Shown: positions 14,458 to 37,437 of the stretch, one piece after another | Numbering within the stretch: position 1 is the stretch's first letter | Layout: every line of letters starts with the position of its first letter | Assembly (NCBI GenBank): GCA_015067885.1 | Contig: SVLO01000021.1 | Coordinates: 1 to 37,975, forward strand | Source: Oscillospiraceae bacterium | GTDB taxonomy: Bacteria > Bacillota > Clostridia > Oscillospirales > Oscillospiraceae | Length of the DNA: 37,975 bases | Direction: 5' to 3' | Made by a program: the position numbers and the translations under genes | The notes under the pieces: generated by a model | The model's database searches: none | Seen by the model: only the letters and a program-made list of their open reading frames with translations | Told to the model about the DNA's origin: nothing

Positions 14458-14533
14458 CGCGGAGTAGAGCAGTTGGCAGCTCGTCGGGCTCATAACCCGG
14501 AGGTCGCAGGTTCAAGTCCTGCCTCCGCAACCA
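14458..14533 (+). tRNA. Initiator tRNA-fMet (CAT)
   Basis: This is a 76-base tRNA with CCA encoded. Two initiator hallmarks are visible: the mismatched first acceptor pair (C1 against A72 in CGCGGAG/CTCCGCA) and three G-C pairs (GGG/CCC) at the base of the anticodon loop CTCATAA. It starts 3 bases after tRNA-Leu. Its 3' half is the integration site of the island array: the 46 bases from the anticodon loop to one base past CCA recur three times downstream. Confidence 0.97.
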
Positions 14534-14534
14534 T
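14489..14534 (+). repeat. att core copy A, inside the intact tRNA-fMet
   Basis: These are the 46 bases from CTCATAA (anticodon loop) to CAACCAT. They are identical to copies at 19925, 29257 and 37392. Copy A is the junction with the left end of island 1 and keeps the tRNA functional. Confidence 0.95.
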
Positions 14535-14539
14535 TAGGA

Positions 14540-14576
14540 AAGCCTCGCTATCTCAGGGTAGCGAGGCTTCTTTTTT
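14540..14576 (+). terminator. Terminator of the tRNA operon, contributed by island 1
   Basis: AAGCCTCGCTA pairs with TAGCGAGGCTT and is followed by C and six T. A nearly identical hairpin follows att copy B, but different ones follow C and D, so the terminator travels with each island. Confidence 0.9.
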
Positions 14577-14664
14577 ATGTTAAAAATGGGAAAAATCCAC
14601 GGCAAAAATTAACTCCAACCCGATGCTGTCAAGCCTCGTCTTGCCATCTTCGCGAATTTTTCTC

Positions 14665-14711
14665 GTCGGCATCCGGTCGGCACGTCGTCGGCGCCGCCGT
14701 CGGCGTGGTCG
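14665..14711 (+). other. Island 1 left arm: phased GTCG direct repeats
   Basis: GTCG starts at 14665, 14676, 14687, 14699 and 14708, spaced 11, 11, 12 and 9. The series ends in GTGGTCGG, 173 bases after the core. Islands 2 and 3 have the same final geometry. These are probable recombinase arm-binding sites. Apart from the terminator and the RM promoter, the 350-bp stretch 14534-14884 contains nothing else I can recognise. Confidence 0.6.
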
Positions 14712-14821
14712 GTACATACTAAAAACTTGAAATAATGCGTGCCTTCTGCGCATAAAGTCCATTTTTACGGACAGCGCTTGCTCTATTCTAACATTGTAAG
14801 CGCATACGCTGTACATTCGCT

Positions 14822-14850
14822 TTGAAAAACACGTCGAAGTATGGTATGAT
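14822..14850 (+). promoter_or_regulatory. Promoter of the type II RM operon
   Basis: TTGAAA, a 17-base spacer and TATGAT lie 34 bases before the endonuclease ATG. A small palindrome AGCG-CATA-CGCT (14799-14810) just upstream could be a regulator site. Confidence 0.65.
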
Positions 14851-14884
14851 TACAAAACAGAAAAGAGCGCAGGAGGTACCACAA

Positions 14885-15355
14885 ATGAAAGCAACCATCA
14901 AGAACATCATCCAGCGTAGCATCAGAGAGCACCTTTTGCCCCTTGCCCAGAAGTACAAAGGCAAAGAGATTTGTACAAAGCCCGTCGACCTTGCTTTCTT
15001 TGACGGTGTGGAGTGGAATGTTCTGGAGCTGAAGGCCGGTGGCGATCTTGACAGTTCCAATGCTCCATCTAATGTAGAGAAGCTGCTGACAATTTACGTC
15101 GATATGGGTATTGAAAACTGCAAGGCTTATTTCGCTGCTTTGTATAACAAAGATGGCGAAGGTAACACATGGAAGGGCGCGGTCAAGAAGCACATGGCCT
15201 TCCCTGAGATGTTCTTGATTGGCAAGGGTTTTTGGGCCAAAATCCTCCCTGCCGAGATCTCCTTTGACGAATTTGTCGCGATATACAAAGAGGCTCTGGA
15301 GCAGATTGATTTGAACTCCAGAATCAAGAGCATGATTGATGCTTGTATCCGTTGA
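14885..15355 (+). CDS. Type II restriction endonuclease, TdeIII-like
   Basis: This is a 156-residue protein. The nuclease core of the PD-(D/E)xK type is visible as an acidic residue in PVDLAFFD (Asp35/Asp40) followed by LELKAGGDLD with Glu48 and Lys50. The block from ELKAGGDLD through FLIGKGFWAKILP recalls TdeIII-family endonucleases, which cut unmethylated foreign DNA. It is at the short end for that family. AGGAGG lies 8 bases before the ATG at 14885. The next gene, a methyltransferase, starts 4 bases after the stop (or overlaps, if its earlier ATG is used). Assignment to an RM system is firm from context; the exact family is likely but not certain. Confidence 0.7.
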   Translation: MKATIKNIIQRSIREHLLPLAQKYKGKEICTKPVDLAFFDGVEWNVLELKAGGDLDSSNAPSNVEKLLTIYVDMGIENCKAYFAALYNKDGEGNTWKGAVKKHMAFPEMFLIGKGFWAKILPAEISFDEFVAIYKEALEQIDLNSRIKSMIDACIR

Positions 15356-15359
15356 TGCT

Positions 15360-16094
15360 ATGTATAACATAACGAAAGTAAAATCGCCAAAATACACGCT
15401 TGTCAACGGCGATTGTCTGGATTACCTAGGCCAAATCCCGGATCACTGTGTTGATTTGATTTTGACGGATCCCCCGTACAATATCGCCCAGTACTCCACC
15501 GGAAACATTCCTCTGCCTGGGCGAACCGCATTGAACAATGACCTCGCTGAATGGGATTTGGCTCCGATTGAGCCCAGAAAGTTGTTGGACGACTTCAAGC
15601 GCATCATCAAACCAGACGGGAATATCTTTATCTTCACCAGCTATAATCTCATTGGAAAGTGGCACGAAGTCTTCGACAGCGAATTTGACACTTTTCAGTT
15701 CTTCGTTTGGCATAAGACAAATCCAGCACCCAAGATATTCAAAAACGGCTTTCTCAACAGCTGTGAAATGATTGCTTGTATGTGGAACAAAGGACATAAG
15801 TGGAATTTCAGCAATCAGCGCGATATGCATAATTTTTTTGAAAGTCCGATTTGCATGAAGCCGGAACGCTTGTCCAATCCCAAACACCCCGCACAAAAGC
15901 CGGTAAAACTGCTGGAACACATCATCTCCATTGCTTCCAATGAAAACGATGTTGTCTTTGATCCTTTTATGGGTGTGGGGTCTACCGGAGTTGCAGCATT
16001 GAAAAACAATCGAAAGTTTATCGGTATTGAGATTGACAAGTCATACTTTGATGCGGCAAGAGGCCGGCTTTTCGATAAGGAAGCCATATTTTAG
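15360..16094 (+). CDS. DNA methyltransferase, beta class (N6-adenine or N4-cytosine)
   Basis: This 244-residue protein has the motif order of beta-class amino-methyltransferases: catalytic TDPPYN early (Asp37-Tyr40), HPAQKPVKLLEHII before the cofactor site, and the SAM-binding FDPFMGVGSTG late (from ~200). It should protect the site cut by the preceding endonuclease. The start is uncertain. An ATG at 15336 would overlap the endonuclease gene by 20 bases. The ATG at 15360 begins closer to the MTase core but has no clear ribosome site, suggesting translational coupling. It is the second gene of the R-M-wHTH operon. Confidence 0.9.
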   Translation: MYNITKVKSPKYTLVNGDCLDYLGQIPDHCVDLILTDPPYNIAQYSTGNIPLPGRTALNNDLAEWDLAPIEPRKLLDDFKRIIKPDGNIFIFTSYNLIGKWHEVFDSEFDTFQFFVWHKTNPAPKIFKNGFLNSCEMIACMWNKGHKWNFSNQRDMHNFFESPICMKPERLSNPKHPAQKPVKLLEHIISIASNENDVVFDPFMGVGSTGVAALKNNRKFIGIEIDKSYFDAARGRLFDKEAIF

Positions 16095-16109
16095 GAAGGA
16101 GAATATAAC

Positions 16110-16364: not shown

Positions 16365-16403
16365 TAACAAACCTCCCAGTGTTAAACTGGGAGGTTTGTT
16401 ATT
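16363..16403. terminator. Shared bidirectional terminator inside the RM system
   Basis: A perfect 18-bp stem (16363-16380 with 16386-16403) with loop GTTAA contains the stop codons of both converging genes. AT-rich arms give T-runs on either strand. Confidence 0.9.
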
Positions 16404-17500
16404 ATCAGATGTTCTGTATCTCGATTATTTCTGCTTCGTACGTTGTAGGTGTACTGTTTGTCAAAACTAAGTATGTTGAAATGCTTCTCATATAGACTGG
16501 CGATAAAGTCCGTGTTTTTGATTACCAAGATAAACTGCGCAAGCGTTTTCTTCAGCGTGTGGGCCAACCGCTCTTGGTCGAGCCTCGTGAAGTCCGTTCC
16601 TTCGTAGTCGGAAAAGTCAGTATCGTATGGGGGATCCAAGAACATAAAATCATTCTGCGAAAGCGGAACACGCTCAAGAAATGTTTCAAAATCGCAGCAG
16701 TGAATATCCGTGTTCGAGAACAGCTCTGCAATTTCCCGGTTAAACATGTTATCGATTTTTGCTTTCATATCTTTGCGGTTGTAGGACATTCCGCCGTAGG
16801 GTATATTAAACTCACCCTTTGCATTATATCGGAACATCGATCCATAGCAATATTCTCGAATGAAGTAGAAGTTTGCTGCCTGATACTGTAGTGATTGTGC
16901 CTCCATACGGTTTAGGCTGATGTCATTAAACACCTTGCGGAAATACATGTAGTAGCCGCTGGTAAATCCGGTTATCAGGTTTTCGCACAGGTCTTCTGTC
17001 GAAAAAGGCTTATTTATGTAGTTCTTAACGGTTCGGACAATCTTGTCCTCAACCATTTGGAGAAGAGAATCATCAAATTCATGCTTGTCCAACAGCAGTT
17101 TTTCGGTAAAGCCGGAATTGATTTTATCGGACAAACAATGGATCAGCGTTTTCAACTCGTTACTAAGTTCCTCTCTGGTCAGCATACCCTCTTTAAACTT
17201 GAAGAAAATATGAAGCAACTCAAGGGACTCTTTTTCACAGGTGGCAACAAGATTGTTAAAACTATTGCTGTAACACATCAACAATTCGTATAGTTGCTTG
17301 TCCTGCGCTTTGATCAAATCATAGTACTGTATAAGCGATTGAGATATGTCATTGATTGCCGCCGCTTTAGGCGCAAGGTGAAAGAACAAGGCGCCTCCAC
17401 CAAAAAACGGTTCAATGTATCTGCTGTAAGCCGGGATCAAAGGTTCTATTTTTCCAATCTCTCCACTCTTGCCACCAGGCCACTTAATTATAGGCTTCAT
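16382..17500 (-). CDS. DNA adenine methyltransferase, Dam family (alpha class)
   Basis: This 372-residue protein has the alpha-class layout: N-terminal IIKWPGGK (Lys6-Lys11), SAM-binding YIEPFFGGGALFFHL, and catalytic DPPY at 289-292. A long central insertion of ~130 residues should hold the target-recognition part. It methylates adenine N6. It converges on the endonuclease operon, and the two end inside one hairpin. Together with the beta-class enzyme this gives two methylases for one endonuclease, as seen when the two strands of a site need separate enzymes. GAGGTGAG lies just before the ATG at 17500. Confidence 0.92.
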   Translation of the reverse strand: MKPIIKWPGGKSGEIGKIEPLIPAYSRYIEPFFGGGALFFHLAPKAAAINDISQSLIQYYDLIKAQDKQLYELLMCYSNSFNNLVATCEKESLELLHIFFKFKEGMLTREELSNELKTLIHCLSDKINSGFTEKLLLDKHEFDDSLLQMVEDKIVRTVKNYINKPFSTEDLCENLITGFTSGYYMYFRKVFNDISLNRMEAQSLQYQAANFYFIREYCYGSMFRYNAKGEFNIPYGGMSYNRKDMKAKIDNMFNREIAELFSNTDIHCCDFETFLERVPLSQNDFMFLDPPYDTDFSDYEGTDFTRLDQERLAHTLKKTLAQFILVIKNTDFIASLYEKHFNILSFDKQYTYNVRSRNNRDTEHLIITNLPV

Positions 17501-17634: not shown

Positions 17635-17816
17635 TCAGGTTTATAATATATAGACCCGTTGAGCGATAATACAAATGTACGTATGACCCTTTATGTTCGC
17701 ATCTTTGTTTCAATGGTTTTGTCTGGATGTTGTCTGGCTCTAAGAATTGCAGGTTTTGGTGAATCATGGTATTATAATATAAAATAAAACTAAATAATTC
17801 CTAGGAGGTGTTTGCC

Positions 17817-18251
17817 TTGGCAAAGGTTCCTTTTCGAAACGTCGCTGTTTTCCCCAACAACAAAAATTGGGGACTTCTTGTTTCTAGAAGCAGCAAACTG
17901 TATTCTAGGTCAGACGATATCCGAAGTCCATTTGCCCGGGACTATACTCGCATTTTACATTCGATGGCATATCGCCGCCTAAAACACAAAACGCAAGTCT
18001 TTTTTAATATTGATAATGATCATGTATGCACTCGAATGGAGCATGTTGCGCATGTAGAATCTGTAAGTTCAACAATAGCCAGACAGCTCGGTTTGAACGA
18101 AGAGCTCACAAAAGCCATTGCAATGGGCCATGATTTGGGTCACGCTCCTTTTGGACACCAAGGTGAAACTGTAATTAAGAAGTTGTGCCTAGATTATTTA
18201 CATCAAAGTTTTTGGCATGAACAAAACGGATTGAGGTTTGTAGACAAAATA
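17817..18251 (+). pseudogene. dGTPase (HD-domain triphosphohydrolase), N-terminal fragment
   Basis: About 145 residues match the start of bacterial dGTP triphosphohydrolases, which are usually three times longer: [26 protein letters not shown] and the HD metal site His76 (RMEH), His105-Asp106 and nearby [10 protein letters not shown]. After ...[11 protein letters not shown] the frame runs into antisense methylase sequence and stops at 18353. The TTG start at 17817 has AGGAGG 8 bases upstream. The C-terminal half, including the final metal-site aspartate, is gone, so activity is unlikely. Intact members lower dGTP or defend against phage; here the gene is a relic. Confidence 0.8.
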
Positions 18252-18726
18252 AGACATAGCTATCATACTGTCCAATGTCAAATCTATAGCCAGCATCCGA
18301 CAACCTTTTCTTATCATATAGTTTTTCTGAACTCCATGGTGGATTTGCAATGATCAATGTCGGATTAACGCCTTTGGAGCGCCAAAACTCAACTGGTGCT
18401 TTTGTCTCAGATGGAAGTAGTGCATCTTTAGAATAAAAAGTATATCGAGTGCGGTCAAAATTCTTTCGGTTATTTCTGATAACATCTTCTTCAACATCTA
18501 TGCCGGTAAGACTGAAATTTTGATGTTCCTGTCTAGAACCGATTATCTGTTCAACTGCCGAAAGCAGGGCTCCCTCGCCACAAGCAGGGTCAAGTACTGA
18601 AATGTCACTATCTTTTTGAATATCTGTTGTTGCATCCTTGTTATACTCTTCAATCAAAAGGTTGGCAACATATTCAGAGAGCGAGTGCGGGGTATACACC
18701 ACACCATATCCTGTGTTATTTGCCAT
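18247..18726 (-). pseudogene. N6-adenine DNA methyltransferase, N-terminal fragment
   Basis: About 160 residues carry VVYTP at the N-terminus, the SAM-binding VLDPACGEGALL (~44-55) and catalytic ANPPW (~127-131). The protein then breaks off after DSYVLF, where family members continue for 200 or more residues. The rest of the frame, to 18175, is antisense dGTPase. The ATG at 18726 has GGAGA upstream and overlaps the XRE gene by 11 bases, so the two were one operon. The type resembles methylases of BsuBI/PstI- or Eco57I-like systems. A single deletion joined it tail-to-tail with the dGTPase gene, and the cognate endonuclease may have been lost in it. Confidence 0.8.
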
Positions 18727-19093
18727 ATGTAACGTCTCCTTTATCCTCGGCACCTTCTGCCAGTGCACACAAAGCTTCCACGCTGATTTGCGTGCGTTCG
18801 ATGCGCCTGATTACATTTATAAGCTCCTTGTTGTCCCTTAAAAAGGTCGAAACATCTAGTGGTGCACATCCGTTTTCTTCGGCAGCCAAATCAAAGAACA
18901 GTTCACGTTCTCCAGGGTTGAACGGCAAATTATTCGCTAATGCCATCAGTACGGTATCGCTCGGAACTGGCCTCGCACCTTTTTCTAAATCCAGCAAATA
19001 CACATATGATATTCCTGCGGCTTTTGCTACTTGAGTCCCTTTGGTTCGCTTACGTATGTTGTGCAGGAATGTTCCAAATGAAGTCGCCGCCAT
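18716..19093 (-). CDS. XRE-family helix-turn-helix regulator
   Basis: This 125-residue protein has an HTH near the N-terminus: SFGTFLHNIRK, then GTQVAKAAGISYVYLLDLEKG as recognition unit. The C-terminal half is helical and acidic. It is followed by the truncated methylase with an 11-base overlap, so it was probably the controller of that modification locus. The upstream region (19094-19169) has three GCTAA repeats near an AT-rich promoter, a candidate autoregulatory site. The ATG at 19093 was chosen for its purine-rich GAGAGGGGG; an in-frame upstream start at 19153 is also possible. Confidence 0.85.
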   Translation of the reverse strand: MAATSFGTFLHNIRKRTKGTQVAKAAGISYVYLLDLEKGARPVPSDTVLMALANNLPFNPGERELFFDLAAEENGCAPLDVSTFLRDNKELINVIRRIERTQISVEALCALAEGAEDKGDVTYGK

Positions 19094-19169
19094 GACGCAC
19101 CCCCTCTCGCCTATCAACATATTGCTATTAGCTAGTTGTTTATATTTTAGCATTTAGCTGTGCTGTTTG

Positions 19170-19559
19170 TCAACCGTAAAAGAATCGCATGACCATGGCT
19201 TTATCTATTTCGCTCTGTGTGTACCGCTTCGGTTCCCCAAATCTCTCCTTGTAGCGGTCCATGGCCTCTTGGGGCAAAGATGTCAGCTCGCCGTCACCAT
19301 CCTCACCAAGGATGTAGAAAACGCCGGTGATGATGTCATCCCCTACTCGTCTGTTACCCTCCAACTGCAGAAGCTTACCTTCCTCGTTGCACAGCAGGCA
19401 GATTCCATCCTCAAGCCCGATGATTTCAATGAGTCCTTGGTCCTCGCACCCAATGCTCACCGCCTTCTGCAAGGCATCCAAATTGTTATCCAGCGTTACC
19501 TCCTTGGGATGCTCACCGGGTTCTACCATCAAGACCTTAATCGTTGTTTCTTTTTTCAT
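19170..19559 (-). CDS. DUF3846 domain protein
   Basis: This 129-residue protein matches the DUF3846 pattern: TIKVLMVEPGEHPKEV at the start, DNNLDALQKAV, the ICLLCNEEGKLLQLEGNRR core, and a DDIITGVFYILGEDG strand. The family is common on conjugative elements and phages of Firmicutes; its role is unknown. The C-terminal ~30 residues are extra (PKRYTQSEIDKAMVMRFFYG). GGAGA precedes the ATG at 19559. It is the gene nearest the right end of island 1. Confidence 0.8.
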   Translation of the reverse strand: MKKETTIKVLMVEPGEHPKEVTLDNNLDALQKAVSIGCEDQGLIEIIGLEDGICLLCNEEGKLLQLEGNRRVGDDIITGVFYILGEDGDGELTSLPQEAMDRYKERFGEPKRYTQSEIDKAMVMRFFYG

Positions 19560-19841
19560 TTCTGAATCTCCTTGTATCGTAGTTCTACTATTGCGAAGAA
19601 CTTTCTTTCTGTCGACAGTTTTTCTGTCATTTATCCTTTTTACTTCCTCTCCCAAAAACAGACCGGGAGTTTGGGGTTTTTGAGGCACCTTTCCCCCTTT
19701 AGCCAGCCTTGTCTTGCCAGTTTGGGTGTTACATTTTCCCGAATCGTTTCCCACCACGACGGGAACTCCCGACACCTCGCTGCGCGTTTGGGCATCAGCA
19801 CGCAAGTCCCCAACCTTTGCGAGGACGTTTCTGAAGCGCTC

Positions 19842-19924
19842 GGTCGGTGATTGGTCGCTAAGTCGGCGGCAAAAAATCCGCTTCTACCTCGCTTGCCTCA
19901 GCGCTTTGCGGGTTCTGCGGGGTT
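19842..19924 (+). other. Island 1 right arm
   Basis: GGTCG occurs at 19842 and 19853, 11 bases apart. The second is exactly 72 bases before att core B, followed at fixed distance by an A-run and a CTCG block. Islands 2 and 3 have the same layout without gaps. Confidence 0.65.
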
Positions 19925-19970
19925 CTCATAACCCGGAGGTCGCAGGTTCAAGTCCTGCCTCCGCAACCAT
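19925..19970 (+). repeat. att core copy B
   Basis: An exact 46-base copy of the tRNA-fMet 3' part. The 5' half of the tRNA is missing, so it is not a gene. Junction of islands 1 and 2. Confidence 0.95.
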
Positions 19971-19975
19971 TAGGA

Positions 19976-20089: not shown

Positions 20090-20161
20090 GTCGCTATATC
20101 GTCGCTATGGCAACCGTTCCCCCTCCGTCGATACGTCGTCGCCACGTCGTCGCTTTGGTCG
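20090..20161 (+). other. Island 2 left arm: phased GTCG direct repeats
   Basis: GTCGCTAT occurs at 20090 and 20101 (11 apart). ACGTCGTCGC occurs at 20133 and 20144 (11 apart). GTCG also starts at 20127, 20138 and 20149, then GGTCGG 9 bases later. The last motif is CGTCGCTTTGGTC, 187 bases past the core, and recurs in island 3. The gap 19971-20239 contains no gene. Confidence 0.65.
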
Positions 20162-20223: not shown

Positions 20224-20239
20224 TGTCTTTGCAGCGAAT

Positions 20240-25417: not shown

Positions 25418-25556
25418 AATTTCGTCCTCCTGTTCATACTGTTTCGGACATTGCTGTGATATTGACAAAGCGGATGTTTTTCTGTACCATGTTTTTGTAG
25501 AGGTATCAGCGGATACTACCCCACTTTGTTTATGCTATTTTACCATACCGAGCCAC

Positions 25557-25626: not shown

Positions 25627-26448
25627 ATGGCCAAAAAAGAAATCATCCAGACCTCCCTGGGCGATCTGGTGCTGGAGCTTCACATTGCGCCCAACTCAAT
25701 CCTGCAAACCCGGCACAACTGGCAGACCAACCGCCACAGCAATGTGGATCACGAACTGCAGATGATTCTCAGCGGAAGCTGCAGTGTGGAAGTGGAGGGT
25801 GTGGTGTATGACCTGCGCGCCGGACAGGGGATTTTGATCCTGCCGGGCAAGTTCCACAAGCCCGTTTCCTATTCGGAGGATTTTGACAAGCTGCTGTTCG
25901 GCTTTTTCCCCATTAAGGGCAGCATTGGTTCCGATTGGAGCACGCCGTGTGTTGTGCTGGACTTCGCGCCGTCCACCGTCACCATGGCGCGGGAACTGAT
26001 GGACGAGTACGCCGAACCCGGCCCCTTCCACCAAAAGATGACCCATTCGCTGCTGGATCAGCTGGCGATTCGCCTGCTGCGCACGCTGGGCACGACGGAT
26101 GCTGCGTCTGTGCCGGTGGTGGGTGCTGACCTGCGGGTGGACGTGATCGACGGCTTTTTTGCCGATTTTCTGGCCGATGATGTGACCAAGGAGGATCTTG
26201 CGGAGCGCCTGCATCTTTCCTCTCGGCAGGTTGGCCGTTTTTTGCAGAAGCGATATGGCATGAGCTTCCGGGAGAAGCTGTTCAACACCCGGATGCTGCA
26301 TGCGGGCTGGCTGCTGCGGCATACCCGGCAATCGGTTCAGCAGATCGCCCCCCAGGTGGGGTACACTTCGGTCCCCGCCTTTATCCGCAGCTTTACCCGC
26401 TTCCACAGCAAAACGCCCCAGCAGTTCCGCGAACAGCAGGATGTGTAA
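25627..26448 (+). CDS. AraC-family transcriptional regulator with cupin sensor domain
   Basis: This 273-residue protein has an N-terminal cupin-type ligand domain (~35-110, with HELQMILSGSCSVEVEG and ILILPGKFHKPV) and a C-terminal double HTH (~180-270: EDLAERLHLSSRQVGRFLQKRYG, then QSVQQIAPQVGYTSVPAFIRSF and TPQQFRE). Such proteins usually activate sugar-utilisation genes on binding a carbohydrate. It lies between the divergent SLH-anchored gene and the GH116 gene, and shared 16-base sites flank it, so it probably controls all three. Start ATG 25627 follows AGGAG. A hairpin separates it from GH116. Confidence 0.92.
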   Translation: MAKKEIIQTSLGDLVLELHIAPNSILQTRHNWQTNRHSNVDHELQMILSGSCSVEVEGVVYDLRAGQGILILPGKFHKPVSYSEDFDKLLFGFFPIKGSIGSDWSTPCVVLDFAPSTVTMARELMDEYAEPGPFHQKMTHSLLDQLAIRLLRTLGTTDAASVPVVGADLRVDVIDGFFADFLADDVTKEDLAERLHLSSRQVGRFLQKRYGMSFREKLFNTRMLHAGWLLRHTRQSVQQIAPQVGYTSVPAFIRSFTRFHSKTPQQFREQQDV

Positions 26449-26581: not shown

Positions 26582-26614
26582 AGCTTGAAGCATTTTATAT
26601 AAGGAGTGGGCAGT

Positions 26615-29173: not shown

Positions 29174-29256
29174 GGTCGGCATCTGGTCGTCGTTATCGCC
29201 GTAAAAAGTGCGCATTTCCTTCGCTTTTGTCGCTATTTCTGAACTTCTTGGCCGTT
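29174..29256 (+). other. Island 2 right arm
   Basis: GGTCG at 29174 and 29185, 11 bases apart. The second is exactly 72 bases before att core C, with an A-run and TTCG at the same offsets as in the other two arms. Confidence 0.65.
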
Positions 29257-29302
29257 CTCATAACCCGGAGGTCGCAGGTTCAAGTCCTGCCTCCGCAACC
29301 AT
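29257..29302 (+). repeat. att core copy C
   Basis: An exact 46-base copy of the tRNA-fMet 3' part. Junction of islands 2 and 3. Confidence 0.95.
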
Positions 29303-29342: not shown

Positions 29343-29470
29343 GCGTCTTTTTACAGTTTTAAACTTTGCACTTGTTTTCGCCAATTTTACGAAGTTCAGC
29401 GCTGTTTTTGTCCCCTCCGGCGCCATCTCGTCGCTTCGCAATGGTTGCGAAAGCCCAAACCGACTGCGCC

Positions 29471-29493
29471 GTCGGCGCATCGTCGCTTTGGTC
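29471..29493 (+). other. Island 3 left arm
   Basis: GTCG at 29471 and 29482 (11 apart), then CGTCGCTTTGGTC ending 191 bases after the core. The same 13 bases end the left arm of island 2. A further GTCG is at 29430. Confidence 0.6.
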
Positions 29494-29851: not shown

Positions 29852-32800
29852 TTACGCCACTGTCGCGTTGGCATTGATTCGATCAATAATCGCCTTGATT
29901 CCGTACCAAAGCGTTACGTCCGTAAAGACTTCCACAATGCTGCCCCGGTCAGTGAAGGGGGTCTCCTGCAGCACAGACAAATCTTTCATCACACCGTTAT
30001 GGACAATATACTCCACAATCTGATTGACGAAATAAATCTGCCGGGCATCTAAGCTGGCATTGTCGAGGTACTCCGCAAAGGCTTCTTTTGCAGCCCTCAT
30101 ATCAAGGCCCACAATCTCCCGCACGAACTCGCCCAAGGGCTTCGCGCCCAATTCCGCCTCATAGTCCTCCCGGCTGCCCACCTCACTCCACAGAATCCGC
30201 TCCAACGCCAGCACATCATCCGCTTCCAGCGGCACATTGCTCCGCAGCTTCGCAATCACCGCCTCGTTTTGATGCTGCCGCACGTAGAATTCCGCCTTGG
30301 CCCGGTAGTTTTCCAACTCCCCGGTGTCCAATTCAGCCGCGTTCCACTCCATGGTCAAAATCTCGTCATCGAAGTTGGTAGTATATGTCGTACGGTCGCC
30401 CCGGATATACTTCACCAAATTGCGCAAGCTCTCACGGATATGCTCAAATTCGTTAATTCCCGCATTGTCCAAATAATCGGTATGCAGCAACTGGTTAAGC
30501 AGCTCCGACTGCGCCATGATCTCCGGAATGTTGGCTACGTCAGCGATACCCCTGACTTTTTTATACAAATCTCTCCGGGCCCGCGGATGCTTCTGCCCAA
30601 CGAGGTAGGCCAGTTCAATGCCGTACATCAACGCATCAAACCGCATGGCCTTGGGGTCATCCTCATCCGGTGTAACCAACGGAGCAAGTTCTTCCTCCAT
30701 CTGCAATGTATCCTCATAGCTCAGCGCCACATAGTTATCCGGGTTGGAGTACAGCTCTACAAACTTCAAATGCTGTCGCACGGCAAAGTTGTCCCGGTTG
30801 AGCTGGCGCACCTTGGCCACCATATCCTCCACCAGCGCCTTTCGGAACGCAATCAGCTCCGGCGTCTGCCACTCCAACCCCTGCAGCTTGAACGCCATCT
30901 GCGCCTTCAGGCTGAAAATCGCACCCTGCAGCGCAAGCTGAGTGGCACTTGGGCGGGGCGTTTTTCCGCGGAAAAACTCAAAATTCCCGCAGAAATCAAA
31001 GATGTAGAACTTATTCTTGTCCGCGCCATCCATCAGCCCCGGACACAGGCGCGTGCCACGACCAATCATCTGCCAGAACTTCGCCTTGCTCATCACCTTC
31101 TTAAAGAACACCAAGTTCACACACTCCGGCACATCGATGCCGGTGTCCAGCATATCCACCGAAATGGCGATTTGGGGCAGCTTCTTGGGGTCGGAGAACT
31201 CGTCAATGGCGCTCTGGGCGTAGTTGATGTAGTTGTCGATCACCTTGGCATACCCCGGCAGATGGGGGTACTCCTCATTGAAAATCTCATAAATCTTCTC
31301 CGCGTGGGCGTGATTCTTTGCAAAAATAATGGTCTTGCCCAGCTTCTCGCCATAATCCACCCGTAACCCATGGGTCATCAGCACGTGCAGCACCTCGCGA
31401 ATGGTGTCCCGGTTGAATACCCACTCGTTCAGCGCCGAGGAATTGATGTGGTCGGGCAGCTCGCCGTCCTCATTCTCAAAGGTATCCTCATAGGCCGCCT
31501 TGTCCGCCTCGGACAGCTCATCGTAGACAATACCCTGCTGGATAAACTTCAGCGTGGTCTCCACACTGGTGTAATCCACCAAATACCCGTCCTGCACCGC
31601 CTGCGCCAAGTCATAGCCATAGGTGGGCATTCCGCTGCTCAACTCAAACACCTCGTAGGTGTTCTTGTCAATTTCGTCCTTGGGTGTGGCGGTCAGACCC
31701 ACCAGCGGTGCATCGAAATAGTGGAAAATGTCCCGGTACTTGTTGTAGATGGAGCGGTGCGCCTCGTCCGCGATCACAAGGTCGAAATGACCGCAGGTAA
31801 ACAGCTTACCCTGCTCGTCCTTCAGCTCATCAATACAGTTCATCATCGTCTGATAGGTGGAGAATACGCAGTGGGCCGTCAGGTTGTCCTTCTCCTCGCA
31901 CAGATTGGTCACCGACAGGTCAGGCAGCAGATTGACAAAGGAGCGCTTGGCCTGCGTCACCAGGGAATTGCGGTCCGCCAAAAACAGAATGTTCTTCACC
32001 CAACCGTGGCGCAGCAGCACGTCGCACAGGGCAATCACCGTTCTCGTCTTGCCGGAGCCGGTAGCCATCACCAGCAGCGCCTTGCGGCGGTTGCGCCGGT
32101 CAAAGCTGTCGCAGACGGCCTTGATGGCACCCTCCTGGTAATAGCGGCCGGCAATGTCCCGGTTCACACTCACGTGGGCAAGGCTTCTGCGCATAGCCCG
32201 CAGGTTGAACAGCTTCTCCAAATCCCGCTTGGAGTAGATAGCCGCCACCTTCCGCTCGGGGTAGGCGCCGTCGTCAATGTGGGTGGTGAAGCCGTTGGTC
32301 AGGAACACCACCGGGCGGCGGTGATACTTCTGCTCCAACAGGTCAGCGTACAGCTTGGCCTGCTGACGTCCCTTGGACACGTCCACACAGGTGCGCTTGG
32401 CCTCCACCACCGCAAGGGGTCTGCCATCGTCGCCGTACAGCACATAGTCGGCAAAGCCCACCTCGCTGCGGTTGGGCATACCGGGCAGCTCCACCTCATT
32501 GAGCCAGTCCTTGCCTTCCGTCCAGCCGGCATCCAGCAGCATAGCGTCAATGTAAATTTTACGCGTCTTAAATTCGGACAGATCCAGCGGCCGGGGGACA
32601 TAGGTCTGCTGCTGCTCCTCGCGCCGGGCGGTCAGCTGCTGACGCAGAGCGGCGTTTTCCGTCATAAGCTGTTCCAGCTTGACCTCCGCTTCCTTCATTG
32701 CCTCCCCTGTGTAAGGGGAGGTGTCAGCGGCACTGCCGCCGACGGAGGGGTTATCCAACAAAGTCGCGTCAAATGTCCCCTGCTCGTAGTCCTTGCCGTA

Positions 32801-33172
32801 ACAGCAGGCCACAAAGTCCAAAAAGACATAGAGGTTTTCCAGACACAGCTTCGCCTGCTCCAACGTGATTTTCTTTCCCGTGTGGGCGGCGTTGTTGCCC
32901 AAAATGCGGATCAGCTTCATCCGCTTCCACACGTCCTCCGGCACAAGGTCACGGAAGTCCTCGCTGTCCATCAGCGCCGCCAGCCGGTCGTCAAAGGGCA
33001 TAGTGAGACTGTCGTCCACGGAATACATCCACTTGACCGCAAATTCCATAGCGCGGCGGCAGTTGATCACGCAGGCCGCCGGGTCGATATGTAGAATGCG
33101 CTCGGCGGACACCGCCACGGAGGAGAAGGTATCAAATTGTGGGTCGGAGGTTAAGAAATCAAAGTTGGTCAT
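29852..33172 (-). CDS. hsdR: Type I restriction enzyme, endonuclease/translocase subunit HsdR
   Basis: This 1,106-residue motor subunit cuts DNA after ATP-driven translocation. Domains in order: DUF4145-like N-terminus (~20-125), coiled coil (~158-188), PD-(D/E)xK nuclease (Asp242...Glu257-Ala-Lys259 in VVEAKR), SF2 helicase with Walker A TGSGKT (371-376) and DEAH (469-472), helicase C-terminal domain with the arginine motif IGRGTRL, and an EcoEI-type C-terminal region. It is full length. The ATG at 33172 follows GAGGTG; an upstream in-frame start has no site. Residues ~143-158 are encoded by a palindromic repeat inserted in frame between the N-terminal domain and the coiled coil. It is fourth in the minus-strand operon, after a 130-bp gap holding the RNA promoter. 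Confidence 0.95.
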   Translation of the reverse strand: MTNFDFLTSDPQFDTFSSVAVSAERILHIDPAACVINCRRAMEFAVKWMYSVDDSLTMPFDDRLAALMDSEDFRDLVPEDVWKRMKLIRILGNNAAHTGKKITLEQAKLCLENLYVFLDFVACCYGKDYEQGTFDATLLDNPSVGGSAADTSPYTGEAMKEAEVKLEQLMTENAALRQQLTARREEQQQTYVPRPLDLSEFKTRKIYIDAMLLDAGWTEGKDWLNEVELPGMPNRSEVGFADYVLYGDDGRPLAVVEAKRTCVDVSKGRQQAKLYADLLEQKYHRRPVVFLTNGFTTHIDDGAYPERKVAAIYSKRDLEKLFNLRAMRRSLAHVSVNRDIAGRYYQEGAIKAVCDSFDRRNRRKALLVMATGSGKTRTVIALCDVLLRHGWVKNILFLADRNSLVTQAKRSFVNLLPDLSVTNLCEEKDNLTAHCVFSTYQTMMNCIDELKDEQGKLFTCGHFDLVIADEAHRSIYNKYRDIFHYFDAPLVGLTATPKDEIDKNTYEVFELSSGMPTYGYDLAQAVQDGYLVDYTSVETTLKFIQQGIVYDELSEADKAAYEDTFENEDGELPDHINSSALNEWVFNRDTIREVLHVLMTHGLRVDYGEKLGKTIIFAKNHAHAEKIYEIFNEEYPHLPGYAKVIDNYINYAQSAIDEFSDPKKLPQIAISVDMLDTGIDVPECVNLVFFKKVMSKAKFWQMIGRGTRLCPGLMDGADKNKFYIFDFCGNFEFFRGKTPRPSATQLALQGAIFSLKAQMAFKLQGLEWQTPELIAFRKALVEDMVAKVRQLNRDNFAVRQHLKFVELYSNPDNYVALSYEDTLQMEEELAPLVTPDEDDPKAMRFDALMYGIELAYLVGQKHPRARRDLYKKVRGIADVANIPEIMAQSELLNQLLHTDYLDNAGINEFEHIRESLRNLVKYIRGDRTTYTTNFDDEILTMEWNAAELDTGELENYRAKAEFYVRQHQNEAVIAKLRSNVPLEADDVLALERILWSEVGSREDYEAELGAKPLGEFVREIVGLDMRAAKEAFAEYLDNASLDARQIYFVNQIVEYIVHNGVMKDLSVLQETPFTDRGSIVEVFTDVTLWYGIKAIIDRINANATVA
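32701..32755. repeat. Palindromic intergenic-type repeat inside hsdR
   Basis: CCTCCCCT-GTGTA-AGGGGAGG is followed by GTCAGCGGCA/TGCCGCCGAC and GGAGGGG. This resembles the double-hairpin repeats scattered between genes of gut clostridia. Here it is in frame and adds about 16 residues (SVGGSAADTSPYTGEA) at a linker. Confidence 0.6.
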
Positions 33173-33221
33173 AGGGGTCACCTCAATGCAGAACAAACGT
33201 TCTAAAAAACTAAATTTAGTA

Positions 33222-33250: not shown

Positions 33251-33256
33251 ACAAAT

Positions 33257-33341
33257 AGAAAGAATGTCGCCGGATAACGCGAGGGTGTTTCACCAGCATG
33301 CTTGTCATGTGGTAGTCGCGCCGGGGGTTCTTTCTTTTTTT
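33257..33341 (+). ncRNA. Compact structured RNA next to a DUF3800 coding region
   Basis: About 85 bases with a full transcription unit. The closing stem AGAAAGAA/TTCTTTCT (33257-33264 with 33328-33335) runs into seven T, so the whole RNA is framed by its terminator stem. Inside it, CCGG (33270-33273) pairs with CCGG (33321-33324), and CGCGA (33278-33282) with TCGCG (33316-33320). Within that junction sit two hairpins, GGTG-TTT-CACC (33284-33294) and CATG-CTTGT-CATG (33297-33309). It overlaps the last 12 codons of the DUF3800 part of hsdS on the opposite strand. Several structured RNA motifs near DUF3800 genes are known (the DUF3800 RNA motifs); this is probably one of that kind. Function is unknown. 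Confidence 0.65.
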
Positions 33342-34486
33342 GTGCAAATCCTCGTTTCGCGAACTTCTACGATGTCAGGTTTCATTTCTGATGTAAAGAA
33401 TTTAATTCCGTAACTATCCACTTTGCTGTTTTTACGGTATAGATGAGCCTGCATAGCTGCCGAATAGCACGGGGTCGTAAACCCATATCCGTTAACTTCA
33501 TATGTCAAAAGCATTGTTGTTGCACATACATCCGCTAATTGAAGCAGTTCCCAAGATCCTGCTGATTTAGCGGATACTTTATTGAATACATTTTCATTGA
33601 TACTGTTATTTGGATAGGGTAGCAGTTTTTCTTTAATGTACTGAATTAGTTCCCCATCTCTAGACGTACCTCGCGCAGAAAGGACAATATCCGCTGTTTT
33701 TCCTTCAGCCTCAAGATACCATGAAACACGCTGAAGTAGATACTTGCAGACATAATTGTAGGCAACGGAGGAGGCTGGAATTTTGGCAGCATCAAATTTG
33801 CTGGTATCGACCAAAACATTCATATATGTGAACGTTTCGCCATTTAACTCATCAATGCTCTCTACACAAACGGAAAGAGGCACCCGTTCCCATCCCATTG
33901 GATTACTTACAGGGTCACCAAACAGTTCGACAAATCGTGCTTTGACCAACTCGTCCAATTTTGCAAGCTGCTCCCTGCGGAGGGAAATTAACTCGTTAAC
34001 CTGGTCTAAAAAGGCACAAATCTCCGTTTGCTCTTCGTATGTCGGGATGCCAATAATCAACTCATCTATATGCTCGTTTCGGATATTATTGATGTTCGCT
34101 CCAGCAGCCAAATCCGAAATCCTTTTGCGATAAGAGGGACTGTCAAAAAAATGCCCTATGTATCTGGGACAATCAACTTTCGGGCGCACAACCTTGCAAA
34201 ATGCCCCAAAAACGGCCGAAACATTCTCCGGAACGTATGCCGCTTTTCCAACAAGTTCTTTGCTCCCGCTTGATGCACAAACAAAGATGTCACCTGCCCT
34301 CAAGTATTGGCTCGGCTTCACCTTGCTTTTATCAACGTACACGACATCATCAAAATTCAGTTCTCCATCACGGATGTTATTTGCACGCAACAGCATAACA
34401 CTATTCTCATTGAGCGCATCATGCAAATCTTCCGGCCTATACGAAACACCTCGGATTTGTTCGATAATATCTCCCAACCTCGCCAT
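33305..34486 (-). CDS. HsdS-DUF3800 chimera (half specificity subunit fused to DUF3800 C-terminus)
   Basis: Residues 1 to ~205 of 393 are a type I specificity subunit: start LGDIIEQIRGVSYR, one target-recognition domain with RANNIRDGEL and SSGSKELVGKAAY, the conserved helix QLAKLDELVKARFVELFGD and the opening NPMGWERVPL of the second domain. From ~212 (ELNGETFTYMNVL) the sequence is that of DUF3800 proteins: ADIVLSARGTSRDGEL, LLQLADVCATTM, HLYRKNSKVDSYGIKFF and the end KKERTPGATTT. The second recognition domain is absent, as is the DUF3800 N-terminus with its acidic active-site start. The ATG (34486) shares its A with the hsdM stop (TGATG). Half-size HsdS can act as a dimer, so function is possible but unproven. 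Confidence 0.75.
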   Translation of the reverse strand: MARLGDIIEQIRGVSYRPEDLHDALNENSVMLLRANNIRDGELNFDDVVYVDKSKVKPSQYLRAGDIFVCASSGSKELVGKAAYVPENVSAVFGAFCKVVRPKVDCPRYIGHFFDSPSYRKRISDLAAGANINNIRNEHIDELIIGIPTYEEQTEICAFLDQVNELISLRREQLAKLDELVKARFVELFGDPVSNPMGWERVPLSVCVESIDELNGETFTYMNVLVDTSKFDAAKIPASSVAYNYVCKYLLQRVSWYLEAEGKTADIVLSARGTSRDGELIQYIKEKLLPYPNNSINENVFNKVSAKSAGSWELLQLADVCATTMLLTYEVNGYGFTTPCYSAAMQAHLYRKNSKVDSYGIKFFTSEMKPDIVEVRETRICTKKERTPGATTT

Positions 34487-36039
34487 CACAGCATCCCCTC
34501 CAACTCGTGCAACCCCTTGGCGATTTCAGCCTCCAGTTGTTGCAGTTCGGCCATGATTTCCGAGGTCGGGGCATAGGCCACGGCCTTGTACTCGGTCTTC
34601 TTATACTTGTTGATGGAGAGGTCGTAATCGTTCTGCACGATTTCGTCCTTGGGAACGAAGAAGGACTTGGCGGTACGGGGGTTGGAGGCTTCGTCGTAGG
34701 TCGCCACCTCATCCGTCGGCTTCGCCGCCACCTTCCCCTCAAGGGGAAGGCTGTTAAAGGAGTGGAACCGGGCGATGATGTCGGGGATATCGTTATCCGC
34801 CACGGGGGTGCGCTTATCGTCCAGGCTGAAGCCGTCGGCGGTCATATCGTAGAACCACACCTTGTCCGTGCCACCGTGGCCGGTCTTGGTGAAAATCAGA
34901 ATACCGGTGGACACGCCGGCGTAGGGCTTGAACACGCCGCTGGGCATGGAAATGACAGCCTCCAGCCGGTTGCCGTCCACCAGCTCCTTGCGTATGGCCT
35001 TGTGGGCGGCGGAGGAGCCGAACAGCACGCCGTCGGGCACGATGACCGCCCCGCGGCCGCCGATTTTCAGCATCCGCAGGAACAGGGCAAGGAACAGCAG
35101 CTCCGTTTTCTTGGTCTTGCACACCTTCAACAGGTCGGCGGACACGGTATCGTAGTCCAAACTGCCCTTGAACGGAGGGTTGGCGAGAATCAGGGAGTAC
35201 TTCTCCTTGTCCGGGTTTTGGTCGGACAGGCTGTCCCGGTACTCGATAAAGGGGTTGTCCACCCCGTGGGTCATCATATTCATGGCGCCGATGCGCAGCA
35301 TGGTGCGGTCCATATCATAGCCGTGGAACATGTGGTTCATGTAGTGGTCTTTGTTGGCTCGGTCAAACAGCACCTCTTGCTTGCGATGCTCTTTCAGGTA
35401 CTCCCCTGCCTCCACCAAAAAGCCGGCGGTGCCGCAGGCAGGGTCGCAGATGACATCATCGGGCCGGGGCTGCATCAGCGCCACCATCATTTTGATGATG
35501 TGCCGCGGGGTGCGGAACTGGCCGTTCAGGCCGGACTGTCTGATTTTGTTCAGCAGATACTCATACACATCGCCGCGCACGTCGGCATCCTTAAGCTGCG
35601 CCATCTGCTCGTAAATTTCGTCCAGAGCGGACACCACCTTGTCCAGCAGCAGGGGCGTAGGCAACTTGAAAATGGCATCGTCCATGTACTTGGAATAGGC
35701 GCTGTTTTTGTCCGCGTGGAGGTTCTTGATGAAGGGGAACACCCACTCCTGCACGGTGGTGTACATCTTCCCGGCAGGGAAATCGCGGAACACCGACCAC
35801 TTCAGCTGCTGACCGGGGACGGTGCGGTCACCGATCTGCACCTGCTCGGCAAAGATGCTCTTGTGGGGCAGGCCCAGCATGGCGCTCTCCTTGGCGCGCA
35901 GGTTGTCCGTTTCGTCCAGATCGTGGATGAACATCAGGTAGGTGATCTGCTCGATCACGTCCAAAGGGTTCACCAATCCACCCGCGGCAAAAATATCCCA
36001 CAGGCTGTCAATTCTGTTTTTCAGTTCACCGGTAATCAT
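34486..36039 (-). CDS. hsdM: Type I restriction-modification methyltransferase subunit HsdM
   Basis: This 517-residue N6-adenine methylase subunit works with HsdS for modification and with HsdR for cleavage. It has an N-terminal HsdM_N helical domain, SAM-binding VICDPACGTAGFLVE (from ~196), catalytic LANPPF (285-290) and a C-terminal coiled tail that contacts HsdS. Length is normal. GAGGAG precedes the ATG at 36039. The stop overlaps the hsdS start by one base. Residues near ~435 (SLPLEGKVAAKPTDEV) are encoded by a palindromic repeat, probably an in-frame insertion before the C-terminal tail. Confidence 0.96.
   Translation of the reverse strand: MITGELKNRIDSLWDIFAAGGLVNPLDVIEQITYLMFIHDLDETDNLRAKESAMLGLPHKSIFAEQVQIGDRTVPGQQLKWSVFRDFPAGKMYTTVQEWVFPFIKNLHADKNSAYSKYMDDAIFKLPTPLLLDKVVSALDEIYEQMAQLKDADVRGDVYEYLLNKIRQSGLNGQFRTPRHIIKMMVALMQPRPDDVICDPACGTAGFLVEAGEYLKEHRKQEVLFDRANKDHYMNHMFHGYDMDRTMLRIGAMNMMTHGVDNPFIEYRDSLSDQNPDKEKYSLILANPPFKGSLDYDTVSADLLKVCKTKKTELLFLALFLRMLKIGGRGAVIVPDGVLFGSSAAHKAIRKELVDGNRLEAVISMPSGVFKPYAGVSTGILIFTKTGHGGTDKVWFYDMTADGFSLDDKRTPVADNDIPDIIARFHSFNSLPLEGKVAAKPTDEVATYDEASNPRTAKSFFVPKDEIVQNDYDLSINKYKKTEYKAVAYAPTSEIMAELQQLEAEIAKGLHELEGML
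34709..34752. repeat. Palindromic repeat inside hsdM
   Basis: CCTTCCCCT-CA-AGGGGAAGG is a 9-bp inverted repeat with a flank TCCGTCGGCTTCGCCGCCA. It encodes SLPLEGKVAAKPTDE in frame, a peptide typical of repeat-derived coding sequence in gut Firmicutes. Confidence 0.55.
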
Positions 36040-36083
36040 ACTTTACTCCTCACATTCAATCAACTCTTTAACCGCTTTTAGTT

Positions 36084-37139
36084 TTACAGTTCTTCCCTGT
36101 TCCAAATATAGGCTGTATACCGCCCACCACTGACTTTGAGAACCGTCCCACTTCGAACCAGTTCGTTCAACGTCCGTTGAATGGTAACCTGACTCACACC
36201 CGGACACTGTTCCATGATTTCTGCTTTTGTTATTTTCCCAAGGGTATTTTCAATGACATTCCGCACTTGGTTAGGCTTGGAAGTTCCTGGCTGTCCTACT
36301 CGTTGTACCCGCTGCTCGAAATCACGGTAGGCGGCCAAAATAACGCCTAACAAATATATAACAAAGGGCTCGTAGTTATTTTTTTCTTCATGCCAGCCAA
36401 TCGAACTTGCTTGCAAGGTTTCGTAATAGGTTTCTTTTGATTGTTCAATCAGCTTTTCGATACTGATATACTTGCCCACGTGGTAATCGGCCCGGTAGAG
36501 CAGTAACAGCGTCAGCAAACGGCTCATACGACCATTTCCGTCGTTAAACGGGTGAATACACAAAAAATCCAACACAAAGATGGGTATCAGCAGCAGGGGA
36601 TCGATTCCTTGCCGCAGACCCTCGTTATATGCTCTGCAGAGCTGCTCCACCGCTTCGGGGGTCGCCCACGCTTCCACCGGTACAAACCGCACCGAGCGAT
36701 TACCACTCTCATCCGTTTCCGCAATGATATTGTCAGAATTCTTGTAGTTTCCGCCAATACTCATACCGCTGAACTTATATAAATCCCGGTGCAACTGCAA
36801 AATCATATTAGGCTTGAGAGGAATATACTCATAACTCGCGTGAATGGTGGCCAAAACATCGCGATAGCCGGCAATCTCCTGCTCACTTCGTGTGCGAGGA
36901 GCTGTTTTGTCTTGAACCAGTTTTTTCAGCCGATCATTCGAGGTATAAATACCTTCGATTTTGTTGGATGCTTCTGTGCTCTGAATCTTCGCTATCTCCA
37001 CGAGTTGTGTTAGCGTTTCCCGCCCGGTTTCCACCAGATGCGTATGCCCGCCTTTCTTCTCGTGGATTTGATTCATCAGTGCAACGATTTCGGGCACAAG
37101 CAATTTCTGCCACTTATTATTTAATTCGTAGTTTCGCAT
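36084..37139 (-). CDS. Fic-domain protein (AMP-transferase type)
   Basis: This 351-residue protein carries the complete catalytic motif HPFNDGNGRMSR (196-207), which transfers AMP or another nucleotide to a target hydroxyl. The inhibitory helix is also present N-terminally as SNKIEG (58-63, pattern S/T-xxx-E-G), so it is the self-inhibited class with its own antitoxin segment. A C-terminal winged helix (~300-345, KITKAEIMEQCPGVSQVTIQRTL) suggests DNA binding and autoregulation. It is first in the minus-strand operon, 44 bases before hsdM. Fic genes are often found with type I restriction loci; the link is not understood. Its own promoter lies just upstream, behind a strong hairpin. Confidence 0.93.
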   Translation of the reverse strand: MRNYELNNKWQKLLVPEIVALMNQIHEKKGGHTHLVETGRETLTQLVEIAKIQSTEASNKIEGIYTSNDRLKKLVQDKTAPRTRSEQEIAGYRDVLATIHASYEYIPLKPNMILQLHRDLYKFSGMSIGGNYKNSDNIIAETDESGNRSVRFVPVEAWATPEAVEQLCRAYNEGLRQGIDPLLLIPIFVLDFLCIHPFNDGNGRMSRLLTLLLLYRADYHVGKYISIEKLIEQSKETYYETLQASSIGWHEEKNNYEPFVIYLLGVILAAYRDFEQRVQRVGQPGTSKPNQVRNVIENTLGKITKAEIMEQCPGVSQVTIQRTLNELVRSGTVLKVSGGRYTAYIWNREEL

Positions 37140-37174
37140 GAGCGTGCCTCCGTTGGATGTTGTCGTTCACTTTT

Positions 37175-37202
37175 ATTATACGCAACTAAGCAAAAAAAAC
37201 AA
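37175..37202 (-). promoter_or_regulatory. Promoter of the Fic-hsdMSR operon
   Basis: On the minus strand TTGTTT and TATAAT are separated by 16 bases, 36 bases before the Fic ATG. The -35 begins at the foot of a 20-bp hairpin. Confidence 0.65.
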
Positions 37203-37245
37203 CCCCCAATTTGATCATTTTTCGCAAAATGATCAAATTGGGGGT
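37202..37245 (-). terminator. 20-bp perfect hairpin insulating the Fic operon
   Basis: 37202-37221 pairs perfectly with 37226-37245 around TCGC, containing two GATC. On the minus strand it is followed by TTGTTTTTTTT. It would stop transcription entering from the right, yet no minus-strand gene lies there, so it insulates the operon from whatever lies beyond the att site. Confidence 0.75.
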
Positions 37246-37300
37246 CGTTGCATCGTATTAACACTTATTCTCCGTCGCAAATTGTGATTGATTGCCTAAT

Positions 37301-37391
37301 GTCGATTCCGTCGACATATGGTCGCTTTGGGCGGCACGAAAAACCGACTCTAGCCTCGATGTCCTAAGCGTTTTCGGGTTTCTGGCTACTG
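37301..37391 (+). other. Island 3 right arm
   Basis: GTCG at 37301, 37310 and 37321 (spaced 9 and 11). GGTCGCT at 37320 is exactly 72 bases before att core D. The arm aligns without gaps to those of islands 1 and 2. Confidence 0.65.
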
Positions 37392-37437
37392 CTCATAACC
37401 CGGAGGTCGCAGGTTCAAGTCCTGCCTCCGCAACCAT
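37392..37437 (+). repeat. att core copy D
   Basis: An exact 46-base copy of the tRNA-fMet 3' part. Right end of the array. Confidence 0.95.

Follow-up and report, generated by a model that had tools for sequence, protein, structure and literature searches.

Three genomic islands stand in tandem behind the initiator tRNA gene of an Oscillospiraceae genome, and at all three of their right ends GTCG occurs at -82 and -71 relative to a tRNA-derived core. We conclude that these islands are probably CIME-like, integrase-less members of a family of elements specific for tRNA-fMet, inserted in trans by an integrase of that family. Many genomic islands show no visible means of moving. The ends described here provide a searchable signature (two GTCG motifs at a fixed distance from the tRNA core) together with a candidate enzyme, so that the choice between relic and passenger, for islands without an integrase, becomes open to direct test; the same signature might also mark the limits of islands which escape integrase-based searches.

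The window, by which we mean the whole stretch of DNA analysed (37,975 nt), is one entire contig of a 1.93-Mb assembly that comprises 43 contigs and is 87% complete; its features are listed in Table 1. The 46-bp core (CTCATAACCC...CCGCAACCAT) starts in the anticodon loop of tRNA-fMet, ends one base beyond CCA and is present in four mismatch-free copies. An earlier note on this DNA had reported the repeat at the positions of cores 2 to 4, with cassettes of 5.4, 9.3 and 8.1 kb between the copies; the copies are indeed exact, and the core-to-core spacings are 5436, 9332 and 8135 bp for islands 1, 2 and 3, respectively. For the fourth copy the match extends one base further, starting at 37391. The sole further match to the core in the same assembly is 23 bp long and lies on another contig (BLAST, E <= 0.001). 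Right after every core copy there is a hairpin with a T-run, as judged by eye. The pairing of tRNA-Leu with tRNA-fMet recurs in relatives. The contig ends 538 bp past core 4, and the array may continue beyond the assembled sequence.

Table 1. Features of the tRNA-fMet locus and its three islands in the window
Feature	Position	Strand	Remark
tRNA-Leu (taa)	14368..14454	+	Upstream neighbour of the target tRNA-fMet
tRNA-fMet (tRNA-Met(cat)), gene complete	14458..14533	+	3' half is core 1
Core 1 (46 bp)	14489..14534	+	Left boundary of island 1
Hairpin with T-run	14539..14577	+	Just right of core 1; by eye
Left arm array, island 1	14665..14711	+	GTCG at +132, +143, +151, +154, +166, +175 from core end
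TdeIII-like type II restriction enzyme	14891..15355	+	Island 1; partial Pfam match, below cut-off
N6/N4 DNA methyltransferase	15339..16094	+	Island 1
D12-class adenine methyltransferase	16382..17500	-	Island 1
dGTPase-like HD protein, N-terminal fragment	17808..18353	+	Island 1
N-6 DNA methylase fragment	18175..18768	-	Island 1
HTH regulator	18716..19153	-	Island 1
DUF3846 protein	19170..19805	-	Island 1; start uncertain
Right arm, island 1	19843..19865	+	GTCG at -82, -71, -63
Core 2	19925..19970	+	
Left arm array, island 2	20090..20161	+	
1742-aa surface protein, SLH + Big_2 + DUF4886	20240..25468	-	Island 2
AraC-type regulator	25627..26448	+	Island 2
GH116-type glycoside hydrolase	26606..29125	+	Island 2
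Right arm, island 2	29175..29192	+	GTCG at -82, -71, -68
Core 3	29257..29302	+	
Left arm, island 3	29430..29485	+	GTCG at +129, +170, +181
HsdR, type I restriction subunit	29852..33196	-	Island 3
HsdS-like N-terminal half, then DUF3800 match	33305..34489	-	Island 3
HsdM, type I methyltransferase	34486..36039	-	Island 3
Fic protein	36084..37139	-	Island 3; best PADLOC match SoFic
Right arm, island 3	37301..37324	+	GTCG at -91, -82, -71
Core 4	37392..37437	+	Contig end at 37975

The cargo was said to differ completely from one island to the next, and this is what we found: type II restriction-modification genes in island 1, a surface protein with an AraC-type regulator and a GH116-type hydrolase in island 2, and HsdR, HsdS and HsdM with a Fic protein in island 3. 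The further claim that none of the islands contains a recognisable integrase also held in both types of search. The Pfam scan of the 16 island proteins, which is also the search that covered serine recombinases, revealed no recombinase and, among its matches, no relaxase or secretion family; no conjugation gene was found among the scanned proteins either. With tblastn, the best match of a tyrosine recombinase to the window had E = 0.17 (21 queries, two being fragments), and no match at E <= 1e-8 was obtained inside the islands with 52 queries.

On its + strand the window has ten copies of the motif GTCGN7GTCG, every one at an island end, and on its - strand none. In 2000 order-1 simulations, end regions contained 0.07 pairs on average and 3 at most, against the 10 observed; in simulated whole windows (200 runs) the mean was 1.0 pair on the + strand and the maximum 4. 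The GTCG pairs stand where arm-type sites of tyrosine integrases would be expected. At the left ends the motifs are spread from about +118 to +194. At the right ends, the -82/-71 positions are occupied in five of the six examined in the genus (the three of the window, G029 and G052), and in the sixth, which closes the second G029 interval, a GACCCA pair stands in place of GTCG. The left end of island 2 was detected by BLAST in 6 of 64 genus genomes (G029, G052, G056 and G062 being among the genus-mates with an end of this type) and is 84–93% alike to seven left ends in relatives; among these seven, cargo in common with island 2 was seen only for G052, the G024 island being outside the comparison. 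The likeness of island 2's left end to the other two in the window is only 54.5% (island 1) and 62.6% (island 3), and there the motif alone is shared.

The distribution of this right end was analysed with the pattern GTCGN7GTCGN{60,75}CTCATAACC, in which the gap was free to vary from 60 to 75 bp, in genus, family and order samples that overlap. Five matches were found in 3 of 64 genus genomes and nine in 6 of 400 family genomes, every gap being 67 in both cases; 3 of 394 order genomes gave five matches, one of them new and genuine (G566, gap 67). One more match, with a gap of 66 in G622, does not lie at a tRNA end and was rejected as a family right end. As a control, the reversed pattern was matched against the three samples and hit 0, 1 and 1 times. 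The earlier note had proposed looking in relatives for the core with matching arms; the outcome is 12 distinct right ends at tRNA-fMet 3' ends, with a gap of 67 in 12/12, five of them in the genus, six elsewhere in the family (five genera) and one in another family. The right end of the GTCG-arm family may be written as GTCGN7GTCGN67 followed by the tRNA-fMet core, a form that all three right ends of the window have. Eight of the 12 close complete islands, seven without a recognisable integrase and the eighth (G566) with one; the right ends of G267, G431 (two) and G349 were left out of this count, there being no left core on the contig.

In G349, a 382-aa tyrosine integrase ends ~40 bp before the element's own -82/-71 arm, on a contig that starts inside the island, and in G566 a 378-aa integrase is encoded in a complete 7.1-kb island that has an exact core repeat and a -82/-71 arm. 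Aligned over 379 aa, these enzymes show 52.8% identity. Their elements have further proteins in common, one with DUF1643, in mirror order, and the integrase is positioned at the right end in G349 and near the left end in G566. When both integrases were compared with 384 order genomes (E <= 1e-70), matches were found in G566, G687, G126, G612 and G738; at E <= 1e-60, a search of 400 family genomes added only the seventh and most distant homologue, G006 C32, which is 38% identical to the G349 integrase. Six of the seven integrase genes of this kind are associated with tRNA-fMet: those of G566, G612 and G738 are near a tRNA end, those of G687 and G349 near a core, and that of G126 lies inside a 14.5-kb island with exact cores at both bounds. 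A recombinase gene accompanied by the same right arm, of the type that the earlier note had suggested looking for, is present in G566 and G349, whereas the right arm is spaced differently in G126 (-81/-69) and G687 (GTCG at -101/-85/-81), and neither an fMet core nor a GTCG pair was found in the 4.1 kb read around G006 C32. In a phylogenetic tree, five cognate genes form a 100/100 clade apart from a 13-gene GACCCA-type clade and from 28 recombinases of seven genomes, none of which falls inside the cognate clade; the tree left out the G738 integrase (truncated at the contig end) and G006 C32, and the program warns of long branches. Integrase and arms are matched through co-occurrence only. From this and from the shared ends we infer that integrases of the clade would bind GTCG and would act in trans on the integrase-less islands.

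An integrase such as the autonomous members of the GTCG-arm family carry was detected neither in the window nor in its genome (no match to the G566 and G349 integrases at E <= 1e-70 in the 87%-complete assembly), and the window islands are therefore non-autonomous at best. There are four PF00589 matches in the genome of the window. Two of them are members of clade-wide conserved gene groups and were discarded as helpers (we take them to be Xer-like); the remaining two, one beside tRNA-Arg and one beside tRNA-Thr, were discarded as well. The seven genomes that supplied the 28 recombinases of the tree have 39 PF00589 places, 30 of which were read as loci. A GTCG triple at L087 was rejected as an arm site; it is coding sequence near a conserved recombinase gene. 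No gene common to all GTCG islands, as a possible novel recombinase might be, emerged from ORF clusters, in a comparison that excluded the G024 and G499 islands. It appears that the proposal of a non-autonomous family moved in trans stands as regards matched-end cassettes across genera and a candidate integrase, and falls short as regards a helper, for which the window's own genome was searched in vain.

If the islands were inserted in trans by a family integrase, the following sequence of events can be envisaged. The family would target the 3' half of tRNA-fMet, and each island would retain what a tyrosine integrase needs in cis, namely the core taken from the tRNA and, on both sides, arm-type sites made of GTCG repeats (right side, -82/-71; left side, an array between about +120 and +190). 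Every left end would bring along a terminator-like hairpin, and the tRNA gene, rebuilt at each insertion, would therefore regain a terminator. The recombinase would be supplied by another element, the integrase-bearing members of G566, G349, G126 and their relatives being candidates; judging by the ends, the enzyme that placed the window islands would most likely belong to the clade of the G566 and G349 integrases. Each new insertion at the tRNA would shift earlier islands outward and in time generate an array, which is the order of insertion that we infer. Several observations count against this scheme: the helper sought in vain in the assembly, the gene fragments of island 1, the deviant arm spacing of G126 and G687, the mirrored layout of the G349 and G566 elements, the low likeness among the window's left ends, and G006 C32, with no fMet core in the 4.1 kb read around it.

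The main rival is decay: each island would have arrived with its own integrase and lost it later, so that the array would be a graveyard and no action in trans would be needed. The census of islands at tRNA-fMet bears on this alternative. The tRNA-Leu/tRNA-fMet query matched 51 of 64 genus genomes, many of which hold extra tRNA-end pieces. In the fetched stretches, to which the census was confined, there are 21 core-to-core intervals, which are not independent samples (core pairs outside the census are known, e.g. in G031 C39 and G011). A recombinase is present in 0/7 islands with the -82 GTCG arm. The 14 intervals without this arm comprise nine GACCCA-type islands, in which the pairs lie close to +87 and -133 relative to the cores, with a tyrosine recombinase 91–151 bp inside the left core in 9/9; a mixed G029 interval (GTCG left end, GACCCA right end, no recombinase); a G024 island (16.4 kb, no recombinase); a G006 island (other ends, recombinase present); and two mini-intervals of 269–271 bp. 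No GACCCA pair occurs on the + strand of the window, the islands of which are thus not of the GACCCA family. Outside the window, a Pfam scan revealed no recombinase among the proteins of the integrase-less islands of G029 (n = 5), G499 (n = 3, right core interrupted by ~200 bp of other sequence), G052 (n = 3) and G385 (n = 2). Five complete GTCG-arm islands were read in the genus, with an integrase in 0/5. Restriction-modification genes are found in 4/7 of the integrase-less islands and Fic genes in 2/7.

Decay has in its favour that some members with this right arm do encode an integrase (G566, G349), that island 1 holds dGTPase and methylase fragments, that the genome of the window yielded no helper and that CIMEs are by definition products of decay, at least in the available text of PMC5704250. 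However, four other genomes, of which two represent other genera, also have the arm without an integrase, and no integrase remnant was found in the window. The islands also leave little room for one next to their ends: the spacing from left arm to first gene is ~180, 80 and 370 bp in islands 1, 2 and 3 (the ~370-bp gap holds a 107-aa ORF), and that from last gene to right arm is ~40, 50 and 160 bp, although a remnant deeper inside could have been removed. On balance we regard decay as unlikely.

Comparison of relatives suggests that the content of the locus changes. G029 and G052 have left flanks of 94% identity and different first islands (DUF3846 and Fic in G029, the former protein being a relative of that of island 1, versus an SLH/DUF4886 protein in G052). 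Fixation of the islands in all relatives, one of the two results that the earlier note had named as refuting, was therefore not obtained, and nor was the other, a recognisable integrase remnant. Behind the first islands, G029 and G052 have in common a block of sortase and pilin genes (Pfam; 87–88% identity). This block, which in G029 falls in the second interval, is found in G033 upstream of the tRNA, and because of this the sequence between cores need not all be mobile cargo. Island 2 of the window and the first island of G052 have the surface protein in common; their ends also agree, at 80% along 887 bp (left) and at 90% along 180 bp (right), and what lies between has diverged. This pattern fits cassette turnover at the tRNA and dates no event.

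Turnover could also be brought about by homologous recombination between repeated tRNA ends or shared left ends, which would shuffle cassettes with no need for site-specific recombination. Two of the G029 left ends are indeed 97.9% identical to each other versus 90–93% to those of G052 and island 2, and the mixed GTCG/GACCCA interval of G029 is as expected from a deletion between two elements. Yet such shuffling leaves unexplained both the conservation of the right arm mainly at its two GTCG positions, with their exact 67-bp gap across genera, and the co-occurrence of the integrase with right arms, and we consider it improbable as an account of the arrays. An artefact of assembly or binning caused by the repeated 46-bp cores is very hard to credit: the window is a whole contig of an incomplete, 43-contig assembly, but the same layout is present in other assemblies (G029, with three cores on a 250-kb contig; G052; and G007, of the GACCCA kind, on one 3.67-Mb contig), and parts of the left flank of the window align with G029 and G052 at 82–90%. 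A viral origin was rejected: two viral contigs contain 37 bp of the core, and each has a complete tRNA-fMet of its own; viral contigs contained no left-arm pattern and no confirmed relative of the cognate integrase, which had 240 matches at <60% identity in phage records (33% in the best 8 of 240).

Insertion in trans by a family integrase thus being the preferred reading, it may be extended. The integrase-less state of GTCG-arm islands recurs in three genera, and tentatively, as a possibility that we put somewhat short of probable, the cassettes, often with restriction-modification or Fic genes, could constitute a stable satellite lineage that depends on the arm sites of a tRNA-fMet-specific integrase clade and is inserted in trans across several genera when integrase-bearing members pass. 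If so, they would be the tRNA counterpart of CALINs and MITEs, forming arrays behind an essential tRNA gene.

Several known systems resemble these islands in part. No such arrays at tRNA-fMet in Oscillospiraceae, no such arms and no such integrase clade were among the literature matches listed (titles and abstract openings). In contrast to ICEs and IMEs, the window islands have no integrase or relaxase that could be found. As in CIMEs and tandem ICE/IME accretion, at least in the available text of PMC5704250, integration genes are lacking, attL and attR are kept and the elements are in tandem at one site; in the window, integration genes (tblastn) and transfer genes (Pfam, 16 proteins) were not found, and cores, right arms and left arrays form related, putative att sites. 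The same text describes CIMEs as decay products beside an ICE or IME, whereas the integrase-less state is here found in more than one genus. CALINs and MITEs, which the available text of PMC11389934 treats as 'hitchers', are likewise reduced to recognition sites with or without cargo and obtain the enzyme from elsewhere; the sites in the window differ, being tRNA cores and arm repeats apparently suited to a phage-type integrase and not attC or transposon ends, so that CALINs and MITEs are a broader analogy. Additive flexible islands also consist of variable cassettes added at a tRNA gene, and in Methylophilaceae repeated copies of the final 20 bp of tRNA-Lys mark them; arm sites and a cognate integrase are absent from the passages on flexible islands (PMC10872708, PMC4119200).

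The closest likeness is to the ssrA islands of Dehalococcoides, which, in the part of PMC3146451 that describes them, are also arranged in tandem behind one RNA gene and bounded by its 3'-end repeats. Integration modules are present in 16 of them and lacking in 15, and the module-less islands were suggested to be cis-mobilizable elements. The view of the array as unusual thus has to be tempered by these 15 islands: that text already documents tandem arrays at an RNA gene in which part of the islands lack an integrase. Those islands have a CcrB-like serine recombinase and a 20-bp tmRNA repeat, whereas the GTCG family has a tRNA-fMet target, a 46-bp core, a candidate integrase of the tyrosine type and spaced arm sites; what is new is the spaced GTCG right-end signal, present at every right end of the window.

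Two very short intervals between consecutive tRNA-fMet cores were found, 271 bp long in one genus-mate of the window (G033, stretch L049) and 269 bp long in a genome of another genus (G385, L150), the latter also carrying an integrase-less GTCG-arm island. By eye, the two resemble each other, and each contains an inverted piece of tRNA-fMet; such an interval is possibly a minimal mobile unit of this site. In a GTCG-arm island of G499 (L147, about 10897-11130), a stretch of roughly 200 bp that is not core sequence divides the right core in two.

Integrase-bearing islands with the GACCCA arm occupy the same tRNA gene in other species of the genus (L057, L058, L059, L060, L062 and L066), and a search of the genus with a tRNA-Leu/tRNA-fMet query gave six extra cores in G027. 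On contig C59 of G024 (stretches L042, L043 and L125), an island of 16.4 kb has a GACCCA pair at its left end, and no recombinase was found in it. The same contig has a GTCG-type left end close to its edge, and the sequence preceding that end contains no tRNA core.

Coordinates of further genes and gene blocks are given in the table. The block shared by G007 and G003 begins at the core in both species and ends in a tyrosine recombinase of 302 amino acids, about 4.8 kb past the core. The integrase-bearing GTCG-arm element of G566 encodes a protein with DUF927 and Cch helix-turn-helix domains, which may give the element a replication step of its own. The sortase/pilin locus is located between the second and third cores in G029 and follows a core in G052; in G033 it is found upstream of the tRNA. 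A complete tRNA-fMet is also present in a phage-like viral contig (L115), in which a match to a tyrosine recombinase (about 25% identity) ends some 300 bp before the tRNA gene.

In window island 3, which encodes type I restriction-modification and Fic proteins, the DUF3800-VII RNA match overlaps the 3' end of a gene on the opposite strand (33305-34489, minus strand), whose product is half of an HsdS joined to a DUF3800 match. The Fic gene is separated from this island's right arm by a stretch that contains an inverted repeat.

Features at tRNA-fMet islands of the window and of related genomes
Feature	Stretch	Coordinates	Strand	Details
Sortase/pilin locus	L040 (G029)	10799-19246		Pfam
Shared gene block	L057 (G007)	12801-14864		orientation as read
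Shared gene block	L056 (G003)	5342-7405		orientation as read
DUF927 + Cch helix-turn-helix domain protein	L159 (G566)	15069-16922	-	Pfam
DUF3800-VII RNA	window	33259-33338	+	Rfam, 62.6 bits (cut-off 36.2)
Inverted repeat	window	37198-37249		arms 24 nt, 96% complementary; spacer 4 nt
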